Assembly (NCBI GenBank): GCA_035606695.1
Contig: DATNEW010000031.1
Span: 1-64,000 of the forward strand
Length of the DNA: 64,000 nucleotides
Reading direction: 5' to 3'
Origin: Gemmatimonadaceae bacterium
Lineage (GTDB): Bacteria > Gemmatimonadota > Gemmatimonadetes > Gemmatimonadales > Gemmatimonadaceae
Numbering within the stretch: the first letter of the stretch is position 1; each line of letters opens with the position of its first letter. Below the pieces are notes generated by a model, which worked only from the letters and a program-made list of their open reading frames with translations, had not been told where the DNA came from and did no database searches. Positions 19,661-60,791 of the stretch are shown here, in pieces. Both the position numbers and the translations under genes were made by a program.

Positions 19661-20461
19661 ATGCCTCGTGTGATTCGATTCGCCGTCGCCGCAACCGTCA
19701 CGACATTGCTGGGCGCGATGGCGTGCTCGAATGGCGACCGCTCGGTGACCGAGCCGTCGAATCAGCTCGATGTGGCGGCGCTGCTCGCCGCGGCGGCGAG
19801 CGGTGAGCCGTCGGCCTATCCGACGGGCGCGCCGGCGATCGCGCTGCCCGTCCCGTCGACCGCGGTGCTGGGAGGCTGCACGTACTCGGCGGCCAATCAG
19901 CGTTTCGACTGCGCGCCGCGAACGATCCTCGGGCTCACGTACAAGAGCTCGTATTATCTGCTCGCGGCCGACGGTACTTCGCTGTCGACGCCAGACGCGA
20001 GCAAGGTCGCGGCGCTCCGCACGGTGTTCGACGTCACGGGCACCATCATTTCGGCGTCGGCCGTCGCCGGGGTGAAGGACTCGATGTCGGTCAATCACCA
20101 CGACGACCTGACGCTCTCCGGTCTGCTCACGGGCAACCGCACGGAGAATGGCACGTCGACCGATCACGACTTCATCGTGTTCGACATCAATGGAACGCGC
20201 ACGACGGACAAGATCGACACCAACGGCCGCACGACGAACCTCGTGCTCACCACCGGCAGCCGCTATCCGACGTCCGGCACGATCGCAACGGACGCGACGA
20301 CCACGGCGAACTTCGGATCGACGCCGACGTCCTTCACCATTCACTCGGCGCTCACGTTCAACGGCACGAGCACGGTGACGCTGGTGACGACGATCGATGA
20401 TGAGTCGACGCCGGTGACGTGCCACATCGACCTGGTGAACTTCACGACGACCTGCAGCTGA
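19661..20461 (+). CDS. lipoprotein of unknown function, tandem paralogue 1
   Basis: The product has 266 residues. ATG 19661 has a GGAGAG ribosome site. The signal peptide ends in a lipobox (LLGAMAC). The mature part is Thr/Ser-rich and beta-strand-rich. CTYSAANQRFDCAP recurs as CTYSPANQRFDCAP in the next gene, and both proteins close with TCHIDL/TCRIDL followed by a final Cys, suggesting two conserved disulfides. The two are clearly a tandem duplication. No enzyme motif is visible; a surface or periplasmic structural role is the most that can be said. Confidence 0.75.
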   Translation: MPRVIRFAVAATVTTLLGAMACSNGDRSVTEPSNQLDVAALLAAAASGEPSAYPTGAPAIALPVPSTAVLGGCTYSAANQRFDCAPRTILGLTYKSSYYLLAADGTSLSTPDASKVAALRTVFDVTGTIISASAVAGVKDSMSVNHHDDLTLSGLLTGNRTENGTSTDHDFIVFDINGTRTTDKIDTNGRTTNLVLTTGSRYPTSGTIATDATTTANFGSTPTSFTIHSALTFNGTSTVTLVTTIDDESTPVTCHIDLVNFTTTCS

Positions 20462-20535: not shown

Positions 20536-21324
20536 ATGAAACAGCTTCGCTTTCTTCCGATCGCGGCCTCGGCAGTTCTCGCCGCCGCGTGCAGCGCGAC
20601 GAACGACACCTCGCCGAACGACAAGACGCTGGACATCAATACCGTGCTGACGCAGGTGTCGGCGGGCGATCCATCGACGTTCGCGGGCGTGCGGACCGCG
20701 TTTGCGCTCCCCACGGTGGCGACAACGGCGACGCTTCCGACCTCCTGCACGTACTCGCCGGCCAATCAGCGGTTCGACTGCGCGCCGGTCAAGATTGGCT
20801 CATTGACCTTCACGACGTCGTACTATGTGCTCGACGCAGCCGGCGGCTCGCTCACCACGACGAATGCGACGCTGGCCGCGGCCGTCCGCGTGATCACCGA
20901 CGTGACCGGGTTGGTCGACGTGACCTCCACGGGAAGCGTCAACGTCACGGTGAACAAGCACAGCGATCTCACAATGAGCGGACTGATTTCAGGTCCGCGC
21001 GTGTTGAATGGCACGTCGACCGAGCATGATTTGCTCGCGACGTCTGGTTCGGTCTCGACGTCGACGACGATCGATCTCACGAGCACCACGTCGAACGTCG
21101 TGCTGCCGTCGGCGACGACGAGCAACTGGCCTCAATCGGGTTCGATCACGAGCGACCTTGCCGACGCCACGAAGATCGGATCGCTGCCCGCCGTGCCGAC
21201 ATCCATGCATTCGGTGATCACGTTCAATGGCACGAGCATCGTGACGTTCATGTCGACGATCGCGGGTACAACGCAGACGTGCCGGATCGATCTGTCGGGC
21301 AATACGGCTGCGTCGTGTGTGTAG
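20536..21324 (+). CDS. lipoprotein of unknown function, tandem paralogue 2
   Basis: The product has 262 residues. The lipobox is VLAAACS near residue 19. It is homologous to the preceding gene along its whole length: a DINTVL.QVSAGDPS segment, CTYSPANQRFDCAP, SYYVLDAAGGSL, NKHSDLTMSGLISG, NGTSTEHD, and the closing TCRIDLSG...SCV. The proteins differ most in the Thr-rich linkers. It lies 74 bp after its paralogue and converges on the MATE exporter gene. Function unknown. Confidence 0.75.
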   Translation: MKQLRFLPIAASAVLAAACSATNDTSPNDKTLDINTVLTQVSAGDPSTFAGVRTAFALPTVATTATLPTSCTYSPANQRFDCAPVKIGSLTFTTSYYVLDAAGGSLTTTNATLAAAVRVITDVTGLVDVTSTGSVNVTVNKHSDLTMSGLISGPRVLNGTSTEHDLLATSGSVSTSTTIDLTSTTSNVVLPSATTSNWPQSGSITSDLADATKIGSLPAVPTSMHSVITFNGTSIVTFMSTIAGTTQTCRIDLSGNTAASCV

Positions 21325-34846: not shown

Positions 34847-37800
34847 ATGATGAAACGTATCCTGCTTCGCGAGCTCACCGGAGTGTCGCGCCTGTTGTCG
34901 CGCCCGTTCTCGCGCCGGTTGTCGCATCTGTCCGCCGCGGCCCTCCTGCTCCTCGCCGCCGCCGCCGTCTCGCCGGCCGCCGCACAGATCGGCACCACCA
35001 CACAGATCATCACCGGTCACGTGGTCGGGCCGGACAGCCAGCCGATCAACGGGGCGCGCATCGACATCACGTCGATCGAGACGGGGGTCATCAAGCACAC
35101 CACCACGCATTCCGACGGCCGGTTCTCCATGCTGTTCCGCGACGGAGGCGCGTCGTACACGGTGCGCATCACGTACATCGGACTCGCGCCGGCCACCGTA
35201 ACGCTCACCCGGCAGGCTGACGAAGACCGGCTGGTCGCCGAGGTGAAGTTGGCGAAGACCGTGCAGCAGCTCGCCGCGGTGCAGGTGCGTGCAAACGCGA
35301 ATCGACCAGGCGCTCCGCCGGCGTCGGGCGCAGGCGCCACCGGATTCGGTCTTCCGCCGGAATTGATTCAGCGAATGCCGGTGCTCGCCGGCGACCTTGC
35401 CGCCATCGCCGCGCTCGCGCCAGGCGTCGTCCCCACCTCGGCGACCGATTCCACCCCGGCGTCATTCTCTGTCGCCGGCCAGCCGCCGGCGCAGAACAAC
35501 GTGACGGTGGACGGCAGCTCGTTCCTCTTTGGCTCGCTCCCGCAGGATGCGGTGCGCGCGGTGCGCGTCATCACGAACGTCTACGACGTGAGCCGCGGCC
35601 AGTTCACCGGCGGCCAGATCACCACCACCACGAAGAGCGGCACGTCGTTGTTCCAGGGCACGACGACGGTGAACCTGCAGCAGCCGTCGCTGCAATTCCC
35701 GACATCGACGTCGCCGACGTTCGGCCAGAAATACACGCAAACCACCGGCAGCTTCGGCGTCGGCGGTCCGGTCGGCGATCACGACGTCTTCTACTTCGGT
35801 TCGCTCCAGTACGATCGCAAATCCGATGCGGTCGCGTCGCTGCTCGACGCCAGCTCGGGCGCGCTCGCCAACCTCGGCGCGAATGTCGACTCGGTGTCGC
35901 GGTTCCGTCAGATCGTCGCGCGCAATGGCCTCGGCAATCTTGGCAGTGCTCCGACGACGCGTCTCTCCACGACGCTGAGCAGCCTCGCGCGCGTCGACTG
36001 GGACATCAACGAGTCGCACTCGCTGATGCTCCGCGGCGACTATCGCCATCTCGGTCAGGATGCGACGCGCATCTCGCCGCTGGCGTTGCCGCAGACCGGC
36101 GGCAGCACGTCGTCCGACGGTGGCGGCGCCATGGCGACGCTGACCTCGAGCCTCGGCAATTTCATCAATGAAGGGCGAATTTACGCATCACAGGATCATC
36201 AATCGGCGGCGGCGTTTCTCGCCGGGCCGGCGGGTGTGGTGACGGTGGCGTCGGGCGCGGAGACCTCGAACACGACGGCGGGCGTCACGACGCTGCAGTT
36301 CGGCGGCAGCCCGGCGTTGCCGCGCTCGACGACCAACCGCCTCGTCGAAGCGTCCGACGAGCTCTCGTGGCTGGTCGGCGACCACCGCCTGAAACTCGGT
36401 GGATTGCTGAACGTGTCGCGGTCGACCATCGGCGCGATCAACAATCGCTTCGGCACGTTCATCTACAATTCGCTCGCCGATTTCGACGCGGGGCATCCCG
36501 CGCTGTTCGCGCGCACGTTGTCCGGCGCCGATCAATCGGCGGGCAGCAACAACGGCGCTCTCTACCTCGGCGACGCGTACCGCCACTCGGCGACTTTACA
36601 GTTTGTGTATGGCGTGCGCGCCGAGGCGACGCGGTTGCCGAATGCGCCGGCGGACAATCCGGCGGTGTCGCAGGCGTTCGGCCGCTCGACGAGCGATTGG
36701 CCGACCGACTTCGCGATCACACCGCGCTTCGGCTTTACCTATCTGATCTGGAATGACGCCGGCTTGCCGGCTGGTTCGATTCGCGGCGGCATCGGCGAAT
36801 TCCGCGGGACGATTCCCTCGCCGCTCGTGGCGGCGGCGCGCAACGGGACGGGCGTCGTCGGCTCGCAGACGCAGCTGCTCTGTGTCGGCTCGGCGGTGCC
36901 GGTGCCGAACTGGTCGGCCTATCTGGCCGATGCGGGAACGATTCCCGACACGTGCGCCGGCTCCGGTTCGTCGACGTTCGGATCGGTTCAGCCGAACGTG
37001 ATTCTGCTCGACAAGAGTTTCGGCGCGCCGGACGTCTGGCGTGCGTCGCTCGGATTCACGAAGCGCATCGGCACGTTCTCGAGCATCGGCATGGACGGTC
37101 TGTTCGCGTACGGCATCAACTCGCCGTTCGGCGAAGACATCAACCTGCCCGCGCCGAGTTTCGTGTTGGCGGGCGAAGGCGGTCGTCCGGTGTTTGCCCA
37201 GGCGAACGCGATCGTGCCCGGCACCGGCACGGCCAGTCCGCTCGTGCGTCCGCACAGCGCGTTCGGTCCCGTCATCTCGCTTGGCTCGGGCCTCAAGTCG
37301 CGAACCGGCCAGGTAACGACGAGCGTGACGATTCCCGGCGTGCACTCGGGCCTGATCACGTTTGCGTATACATGGAATCGTGTCCTCGATCAGTCGGACG
37401 GCTTCGCGCTCGGCTCCTATGTGCCGAATACCGCCGGCAACCCGAACACGATCGAGTGGGGCACGAGCGATCTCGAACGGCGGCATCAGGTGATCGCGAC
37501 CTCGCTCATTCCGTTCTCGCATGGGATCGACTTCACGGTGATCGGCCGCTTGTTGAGCGGCGCGCGCTACACGCCGTCGGTCAACGGCGACGTGAATGGC
37601 GACGGACAGCGCAACGATCGCGCGTTCGTGCCGGGCGCGGGATCGTCGCTCTCCTCCGACATTGACAAGCTGATCGCGACGACGGACGATCGCGCGGCGG
37701 ATTGCATTCGATCGCAGGAAGGGCGAATCGCGTCGCGCAACTCGTGCACGACGCCGTGGACGCCGCAGCTCGACTTCCAGGTGAACTGGCAGCCGCGCGC

Positions 37801-38518
37801 GCGTGTGTTCGACGATCGGCTGACGGTGTCGCTCGTCGCCACGAACACGCTGGCCGGCGTCGACCGCGTGCTGCACGGCGACAACCTGCACGGTTGGGGA
37901 CAGCCGGTGTTCCCGGATCGCACGCTGCTGTCGATTGCCGGCTTCGACCAGCAGTCGCGCCAGTACCTTTACAAGGTGAACGGTCACTTCGGCTCGCCGA
38001 CGGGCGCGGGCAGCGCGTTCCTCGTGCCGTTCCAGCTTGGCCTGCGCGGCCAGGTGAAGGTGGGCAGCGACCCGGTGAAGGTGCAGCTCAAAGCCGTGAC
38101 CGGCGGCGCCAATGGCGGCAAGGCGACGCTCGCCGAAGTGAAGGAGCGCATCTCGAAGGGGCTGCCGACACCGGTCAAGTCACTGGTCGAGCAGGCGGAC
38201 TCGCTCAAGCTCAACCTCACGCGCGATCAACGGGTGAAGCTCAACGCGATCTCGACGAAGTTCTCGCAGCAGGCCGACTCGATCATCACCGTGATCGCGC
38301 AGCTGCTGGTCGATGCGGGCGACCATCCCGACCTGGGCGCGCTCGCGCCGAAGATTCAGCCGGCGAACATCTTCATTCTCAAGGCGCTGCAGCAGTCGGT
38401 GAAGGATGCGCAGAATACATTGACGCCCGAGCAGTGGGCGAAGGTGCCGGAGCGCATCCGATTGCCGCTGTCCGCGCCGCCGCCATCGCAGCAGCAGCAA
38501 CGGCCGCCGGCAGACTAA
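34847..38518 (+). CDS. TonB-dependent receptor (Oar-like) with C-terminal LTXXQ helical domain
   Basis: The product has 1223 residues. The signal peptide ends near AAAAVSPAAAQ (about 43). A carboxypeptidase-regulatory-like domain follows (ITGHVVGPDSQPINGARIDITS, about 50-125), then a plug-like domain (DLAAIAALAPGV, NVTVDGSSF, RGQFTGGQITTTTKSG) and a long beta-barrel. After the last strand, about 1105-1223 is helical with two LTxxQ motifs (LTRDQRVKL and LTPEQWAKV) and a Gln/Pro tail, resembling Spy/CpxP chaperones; this fusion is unusual. ATG 34847 is used; the next ATG is 3 nt on. A TTGACA lies at 34717-34722, without a clear -10 box. Confidence 0.85.
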   Translation: MMKRILLRELTGVSRLLSRPFSRRLSHLSAAALLLLAAAAVSPAAAQIGTTTQIITGHVVGPDSQPINGARIDITSIETGVIKHTTTHSDGRFSMLFRDGGASYTVRITYIGLAPATVTLTRQADEDRLVAEVKLAKTVQQLAAVQVRANANRPGAPPASGAGATGFGLPPELIQRMPVLAGDLAAIAALAPGVVPTSATDSTPASFSVAGQPPAQNNVTVDGSSFLFGSLPQDAVRAVRVITNVYDVSRGQFTGGQITTTTKSGTSLFQGTTTVNLQQPSLQFPTSTSPTFGQKYTQTTGSFGVGGPVGDHDVFYFGSLQYDRKSDAVASLLDASSGALANLGANVDSVSRFRQIVARNGLGNLGSAPTTRLSTTLSSLARVDWDINESHSLMLRGDYRHLGQDATRISPLALPQTGGSTSSDGGGAMATLTSSLGNFINEGRIYASQDHQSAAAFLAGPAGVVTVASGAETSNTTAGVTTLQFGGSPALPRSTTNRLVEASDELSWLVGDHRLKLGGLLNVSRSTIGAINNRFGTFIYNSLADFDAGHPALFARTLSGADQSAGSNNGALYLGDAYRHSATLQFVYGVRAEATRLPNAPADNPAVSQAFGRSTSDWPTDFAITPRFGFTYLIWNDAGLPAGSIRGGIGEFRGTIPSPLVAAARNGTGVVGSQTQLLCVGSAVPVPNWSAYLADAGTIPDTCAGSGSSTFGSVQPNVILLDKSFGAPDVWRASLGFTKRIGTFSSIGMDGLFAYGINSPFGEDINLPAPSFVLAGEGGRPVFAQANAIVPGTGTASPLVRPHSAFGPVISLGSGLKSRTGQVTTSVTIPGVHSGLITFAYTWNRVLDQSDGFALGSYVPNTAGNPNTIEWGTSDLERRHQVIATSLIPFSHGIDFTVIGRLLSGARYTPSVNGDVNGDGQRNDRAFVPGAGSSLSSDIDKLIATTDDRAADCIRSQEGRIASRNSCTTPWTPQLDFQVNWQPRARVFDDRLTVSLVATNTLAGVDRVLHGDNLHGWGQPVFPDRTLLSIAGFDQQSRQYLYKVNGHFGSPTGAGSAFLVPFQLGLRGQVKVGSDPVKVQLKAVTGGANGGKATLAEVKERISKGLPTPVKSLVEQADSLKLNLTRDQRVKLNAISTKFSQQADSIITVIAQLLVDAGDHPDLGALAPKIQPANIFILKALQQSVKDAQNTLTPEQWAKVPERIRLPLSAPPPSQQQQRPPAD

Positions 38519-60111: not shown

Positions 60112-60603
60112 CTAAATCACACCAGGCGGCCTCGGACCACGACCACGCATGCCCGGACCGCGCTCTGCTTCACGTTTCTTGAGTTCGGCGACGTTCGCAT
60201 CGAACTGCGCGTACTGATCGCTCGTCAGAATCCCGCGAAGCGCCGCGATCTGCTGGTCGCGCCGCGCCTCCATCTCGGTACGCTGCTTCTCCATCAACTG
60301 CCGCAGCGTCGCCGTGTCACCCTTCTCGCGCGCGTCACGCATCTGCTCGAACGTCGAGTTGCCCTGACCACGCTGCGCCTGCATCTCCTCGCGCTGTGCC
60401 TTGCGCATGTCTTCGAGCTTCGCCTTCTGCGCGTCGCTCAGCGTGATGTTCTGCAGCAACGCACCGTCCATCATCATTCCTTGACCGCCACGACCACCCG
60501 GACCACGACCGCGCCCCGCCGGCGGTTCACCGCCGCCCTGCGCCTGCAGCGCAGTCGCGCCGGTGAGAGCGGCAAACGCCGCCACTAATGCAATCGTTCG
60601 CAT
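60112..60603 (-). CDS. Spy/CpxP-like LTXXQ periplasmic protein
   Basis: A 163-residue protein. The signal peptide ends ATALQAQG (about 22). A Gly/Arg-rich stretch follows, then helices with ITLSDAQKAKLEDM and ILTSDQYAQF, the two LTxxQ-type motifs, and a C-terminal Gly/Arg/Pro tail. Spy-type proteins are ATP-independent periplasmic chaperones or metal-stress sensors. Start ATG 60603 has a GGAG ribosome site; the frame is open 15 nt further. The TonB-type receptor at 34847-38518 ends in a similar domain. Confidence 0.85.
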   Translation of the reverse strand: MRTIALVAAFAALTGATALQAQGGGEPPAGRGRGPGGRGGQGMMMDGALLQNITLSDAQKAKLEDMRKAQREEMQAQRGQGNSTFEQMRDAREKGDTATLRQLMEKQRTEMEARRDQQIAALRGILTSDQYAQFDANVAELKKREAERGPGMRGRGPRPPGVI

Positions 60604-60791
60604 GAATGCTCCAACCAAATTGTCGTGCAGCGGCGCCGTGACGTCGCTACCTCGCTACGTCGCGGACTATCGCCGCCACCTCATGGAGATTCGACGCGAC
60701 CAACGCGCGGTTGTTAACTCGGCCGAAACCGCAGCGTTCGCTTCGCCGATATGCTCCATACTCAACGACACCACGACAGCCTGGAACCCGC

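Follow-up and report, generated by a model that had tools for sequence, protein, structure and literature searches.

Domain layout of the receptor gene

The window, a stretch of 64,000 nucleotides from a Gemmatimonadaceae bacterium (contig DATNEW010000031.1), carries on its plus strand a reading frame at 34847-38518 that is open throughout and encodes a protein of 1223 amino acids with a signal-peptide-like N-terminus. Its features, together with those of a stand-alone gene elsewhere in the window, are given below with the evidence for each assignment.

34847 to 34984, plus strand: signal peptide, aa 1-46, read from the sequence (SAAALLLLAAAAVSPAAAQ)
35003 to 35248, plus strand: N-terminal extension, a CarboxypepD_reg beta-sandwich, aa 53-134 (Pfam PF13620, E 9.3e-12; AF2 strands at residues 7-88 of the mature protein)
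35345 to 35680, plus strand: plug-like domain, aa ~167-278 (family profile against TbpA structures, E 3e-5; weak Pfam Plug match, E 0.16; AF2)
35732 to 38065, plus strand: beta-barrel, aa ~296-1073 (Pfam OMP_b-brl_4, E 6.5e-32, aa 375-979; AF2 strands; Foldseek)
38030 to 38065, plus strand: last barrel strand, aa 1062-1073 (AF2 model of the mature protein)
38066 to 38128, plus strand: barrel-to-tail linker, aa 1074-1094, ~21 residues (homologue alignment; Gly-rich and longer in many homologues)
38129 to 38473, plus strand: C-terminal LTXXQ/Spy-family helical domain, aa 1095-1209, ~115 residues (AF2; tail-profile match at 38132-38470; profile-profile match to stand-alone LTXXQ proteins)
38216 to 38230, plus strand: first LTxxQ motif, LTRDQ, aa 1124-1128, opening the first long helix (sequence; nearly invariant Q across 39 tails)
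38420 to 38434, plus strand: second LTxxQ motif, LTPEQ, aa 1192-1196, followed by W-A-K-V-P (sequence; conservation in 39 tails)
38474 to 38515, plus strand: disordered Pro/Gln C-terminus of 14 residues (AF2 pLDDT below 50, mature residues 1163-1177)
60112 to 60618, minus strand: stand-alone secreted LTXXQ (Spy/CpxP-type) protein, outside the receptor locus (Pfam LTXXQ 31.6 bits, over the cut-off; tail profile E 8e-4)

The CarboxypepD_reg model PF13620 scored 45.6 bits at aa 55-127 against a cut-off of 32.3, so that the N-terminal extension of the Oar subclass is present. A profile of 36 full-length homologues matched the N-terminal, plug-side part of structures of TbpA (transferrin-binding protein A), and this match together with the AF2 model identifies the plug domain of the same subclass, with Pfam Plug alone remaining below its cut-off. 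A LxxVxV-like stretch precedes the plug in the consensus of the receptor family and represents a candidate TonB box. The genome of the receptor holds ten TonB_C matches over the cut-off. In NCBIfam, the sole match to the receptor was a weak SusC N-terminal one.

For the mature receptor, AF2 predicted an N-terminal beta-sandwich, a plug, a barrel and, past the last strand, a helical domain (mean pLDDT 81.6, pTM 0.80). When the whole receptor model was compared with the PDB using Foldseek, all 50 of the 50 matches listed were TonB-dependent receptors or SusC-type transporters, with a best E-value of 1.6e-35. The predicted layout and the Foldseek matches thus indicate a barrel of the TonB-receptor type with an Oar layout, and a tail that forms a separate folded domain.

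The last strand in the AF2 model leaves about 150 residues behind it, instead of the roughly 118 counted in the preliminary description. The occurrence of LTRDQ and LTPEQ in a helical context and the Gln/Pro end, both pointed out there, agree with the predicted helices and the disordered terminus. Modelled with 39 homologous tails, the tail was all helical with a mean pLDDT of 96.6 and a pTM of 0.85, and each LTxxQ motif starts a helix; the structure prediction that had been proposed as a check accordingly gave a domain that is neither disordered nor part of the barrel. In the alignment of the 39 tails, columns Q34, Q102 and L98 of the two motifs are nearly invariant. Within and behind the second motif, L and Q are conserved in 97% of the tails, W in 82% and P in 95%.

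Relationship of the tail to LTXXQ proteins

The Pfam LTXXQ model (PF07813) scored the whole receptor at 18.9 bits (aa 1121-1199), below its cut-off of 24.3, and the tail alone at 24.4 bits, just above it. Individually, 25 of the 39 homologous tails matched PF07813 (best 2.8e-9), and among 98 relatives the model exceeded its cut-off in more than 15 ORFs of 1195-1456 aa. A single-sequence hhalign comparison of the tail with Spy yielded a weak match (28% probability), and the relationship was therefore examined with a family profile. When aligned with a profile of 31 stand-alone LTXXQ proteins, among them Spy and CpxP of E. coli, the tail profile reached a probability of 98.5% (E 3e-15), the alignment covering 90 columns and placing both motifs in register. 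As controls, the column-reversed profile gave 1.3% and none of 20 column shuffles exceeded 3.1%.

These sequence comparisons firmly support homology of the tail to the stand-alone LTXXQ/Spy/CpxP proteins, and we consider the layout, a TonB-receptor-type barrel with a C-terminal LTXXQ domain, together with this homology to be nearly certain. The original reading of the gene as a TonB-type receptor with such a domain is borne out by the Foldseek matches of the barrel, the AF2 fold of the tail and the profile homology. The result is relevant to annotation because Pfam scores the tail of this receptor at or below threshold. The stand-alone LTXXQ gene reported for the window does exist; it runs on the minus strand at 60112-60618 and not at 60112-60603.

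In a Foldseek search of the PDB with the tail, CnrX, a Ni/Co sensor of the Spy/CnrX kind, occurred repeatedly among the 20 best matches, which also included the LTXXQ relative STV of Salmonella. Every E-value was above 0.7, so the likeness in fold to CnrX and STV is suggestive only. By sequence, the Salmonella VirG-like protein (STV) was the sole PDB match to span the domain (E 0.012); other sequence matches were set aside as mostly composition-driven helical ones. A PHROGs search with the tail found nothing.

Distribution, inheritance and gene neighbourhoods

The tailed layout is standard in a large family of Gemmatimonadota receptors. All matches of receptor homologues in genome contigs came from this phylum, and the sole convincing tail match among PLSDB plasmids was in Gemmatirosa. 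Sixty receptor ends were drawn from a homologue list ranked by whole-protein similarity, and the tail lies in the same frame as the barrel in all 59 assessable cases, a count that, owing to this ranking, covers the core family and not every distant barrel; the 60th end is interrupted by the end of its contig. The expectation that homologous receptors share the tail and conserve its LTxxQ motifs therefore holds. At E <= 1e-5 the tail profile was found in at least 260 of the 395 genomes from the phylum, with scoring confined to the best candidates.

In the genome of the window, eight receptor ORFs and one M56 peptidase matched the profile, and the stand-alone LTXXQ gene gave a weak match. Among ORFs with the tail profile, the M56 fusion was the one tail-bearing protein other than receptors. 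The other short ORFs with this profile proved to be receptor fragments at contig ends or frame breaks, and long non-receptor LTXXQ ORFs to be stand-alone secreted proteins with spurious upstream frames. At L273:1021-2103 and L271:2030-3802, stand-alone proteins contain two tandem LTXXQ domains. An in-frame TGA interrupts the tailed receptor gene at L133:7217-10894 (genome G029), which is either a pseudogene or an assembly error.

That a normal receptor ends with its last barrel strand, as stated in the preliminary description, is confirmed by Bacteroidota relatives (Rufibacter, Spirosoma, Parabacteroides) and by a distant paralogue from the same genome, all of which stop exactly there. The tail-less proteins end in QLGARYSL, QIGVRYKF or QLQLKYTF, whereas the Gemmatimonadota receptors read QARYTLG and continue. 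In 36 receptors, 25-65 aa, often Gly-rich, separate the last strand from the conserved tail core. Across 630 pairs, tail identity correlates with barrel identity (r = 0.89; mean identity 31% for the tail and 44% for the barrel), and in eight close pairs omega of the tail was 0.18-0.53. The correlated divergence and the omega values indicate that the tail has been inherited with the barrel and kept by purifying selection.

Several further gene arrangements were observed. A secreted family of ~420 aa without a Pfam match, perhaps a beta-propeller partner, adjoins one subfamily of tailed receptors (L089:11867-15706, L090:4670-5974 and 13 other neighbourhoods; 15 of 47 in total), and in L089 at least three copies stand side by side. 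At L155:4974-9515 the gene of a tailed receptor is preceded, at a distance of 40 bases, by that of a PDZ-domain protein, next to which an ECF sigma factor-like gene lies. At L133:11127-12732 and L141:15066-16734, tailed receptors adjoin three consecutive genes, for an ECF sigma factor, a small protein and an LTXXQ protein that is likewise small and has a hydrophobic N-terminal segment, an order that recalls cnrH/cnrY/cnrX. Many M56 peptidases of Gemmatimonadaceae (L097-L125) carry HEAT-like repeats towards their C-terminus and then close with a conserved Trp-Pro sequence such as GPWPWPWPEPRPFP. Within the window itself, 19706-20461 and 20536-21324 encode adjacent, similar-looking predicted lipoproteins, the first of them without a Pfam match.

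Possible functions and comparison with known systems

By topology, both termini of the barrel are expected on the periplasmic side, which would place the tail at the periplasmic opening of the barrel, in line with the earlier proposal of a domain held in the periplasm by the barrel. There it would hang on its flexible linker and act like a tethered Spy, keeping a polypeptide at the pore, either barrel cargo or a protein partner. Spy, a dimeric chaperone of cradle-like shape, binds clients that are unfolded (PMC8144458), and Oar of Myxococcus is needed for export of the protease PopC, a whole protein (PMC6434023). Taken together, these two observations make a polypeptide-binding domain at an Oar-like pore plausible, and we therefore favour a binding module. 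By analogy with these systems, the likeliest function of the tail would be to bind a polypeptide or a partner at the mouth of the barrel, a tentative assignment to which we give somewhat less than an even chance. Against a binding module, export by the tailed barrels themselves is only an analogy with Myxococcus Oar, and the tails vary more than the barrels in the identity comparison. The client-binding surface of Spy is strongly basic, and the weakly positive net charge of the tails (mean +1.7) likewise counts against this reading. A putative chaperone- or sensor-like role, as first suggested for the tail, is reasonable. The explanation as a whole, an Oar-like protein of TonB-receptor fold ending in a tethered Spy/CpxP-family domain that would bind protein at the pore, is in our judgement evenly balanced between holding and failing. 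A Spy-type domain past the barrel throughout the phylum would provide receptors with a built-in periplasmic binding module, and it prompts the questions whether the barrel exports or imports polypeptides and whether the tail serves as chaperone, docking site or signal transmitter.

As the main alternative, the tail might report the state of the receptor to inner-membrane regulators with related LTXXQ domains, i.e., BlaR1-type M56 proteases or CnrX-like anchored proteins beside ECF sigma factors, and would then correspond, at the opposite terminus, to the N-terminal signalling domain of FecA/FpvA. Known regulatory receptors do have periplasmic signalling domains (PMC11658791). In the genome of the window, an operon of overlapping genes on another contig combines these elements:

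L089:6068-11843 (G000:C26, ~140 kb): BlaI-type repressor (PF03965, E 4e-25), BlaR1-type M56 peptidase (PF05569, E 4e-35) ending in the tail domain (E 2e-11), and tailed receptor

Three members of the secreted ~420-aa family then follow. A matching operon in a genome of the same genus encodes BlaI, an M56 protein with LTxxQ-like repeats in place of the tail domain, and a tailed receptor, and tailed receptors in G029 and G035 have an ECF sigma factor gene as a neighbour, along with genes for a small protein and for a small LTXXQ protein whose N-terminus includes a hydrophobic segment. These few cases hint at a relay that would link receptor tails to regulators of the inner membrane. However, no M56-tail fusion appeared among matches from the 147 other family genomes, in which M56 proteins mostly end in HEAT-like repeats; as a general feature it was rejected, having been found in this genome only. 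A separate LTXXQ gene occurs in 3 of 47 receptor neighbourhoods against a rough estimate of 1 expected, and inspection of the neighbourhood of the window's receptor, where DinB-family and glutaminyl-tRNA-synthetase-like genes lie, revealed no adjoining regulator gene. A signalling function of the tail is doubtful. The broader proposal that receptor tails might pair across the periplasm with LTXXQ domains of M56 or CnrX-like regulators, giving Gemmatimonadota an outer-to-inner-membrane route with many receptors per cell, appears improbable; if true, it would constitute a previously unknown signalling route.

A structural contribution, be it receptor dimerisation, OmpA-like periplasmic anchoring or aid to folding and insertion of the long barrel, would fit a tail that the family shares throughout and that has been passed on vertically together with the barrel. 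Spy-type proteins dimerise (PMC8144458), and a last strand that is internal and not C-terminal might need help in assembly. Nonetheless, tail-less relatives exist, and the linker of 25-65 residues is variable and often Gly-rich, which fits a flexible tether better than a rigid contact; we regard a structural role as rather unlikely. A metal-sensing domain of the CnrX/ZraP type is suggested by CnrX being the most frequent recurring match in the fold search, but neither His nor Cys exceeds 8% of sequences in any column of the 39-tail alignment, so the ligands of CnrX are missing and metal sensing has very little probability. If the motifs had arisen by chance in a C-terminal extension that is disordered or decaying, a single-protein Pfam score below or at the cut-off would be accounted for, yet this reading is refuted by the high-confidence fold, the phylum-wide conservation, the purifying selection and the controlled profile-profile homology, which leave it a negligible probability.

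In the open-access literature, we found no description of an LTXXQ or any other folded domain past such a barrel; searches for Gemmatimonadetes with receptor C-terminal domains gave no match, and those for LTXXQ with TonB no relevant paper. The tailed-receptor layout is, as far as we could find, undescribed. Its presentation as new can stand to this extent, although it is not peculiar to the present gene. OmpA and other barrels carry a C-terminal periplasmic domain past the last strand, so that the placement of the domain is shared with the tailed receptor; their barrel and domain are unrelated to those of the receptor. With Spy/CpxP (PF07813) the tail shares two LTxxQ motifs in register, a predicted all-helical domain and profile homology. 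Spy and CpxP are free in the periplasm, whereas the tail is tethered to an outer-membrane barrel, is only weakly basic and has an additional N-P ahead of the first motif and an additional W-A-K-V-P behind the second. The periplasmic metal sensors CnrX/ZraP may resemble the tail in fold, at weak Foldseek E-values, but conserved metal ligands of their kind (His/Met/Glu) are absent from it.

Receptors of the FecA/FpvA type also combine a TonB-receptor barrel with an extra periplasmic domain (PMC11658791). Their domain is N-terminal, as is the signalling domain of regulatory receptors (PMC11658791), and of a different fold, while the tail is C-terminal and helical. The extra domains described on TonB-dependent receptors are N-terminal ones (PMC6434023, PMC11658791), and a survey of 34,893 TonB-dependent transporters classed them by five N-terminal architectures (PMC6434023). 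Such a survey may have missed the tailed receptors, because their barrel matches OMP_b-brl_4 and not PF00593. With the Oar subclass, typified by Oar of Myxococcus xanthus (PMC6434023), the receptor shares the CarboxypepD_reg extension, the plug and the large barrel of TonB-receptor fold; the receptor differs in its folded domain past the barrel.
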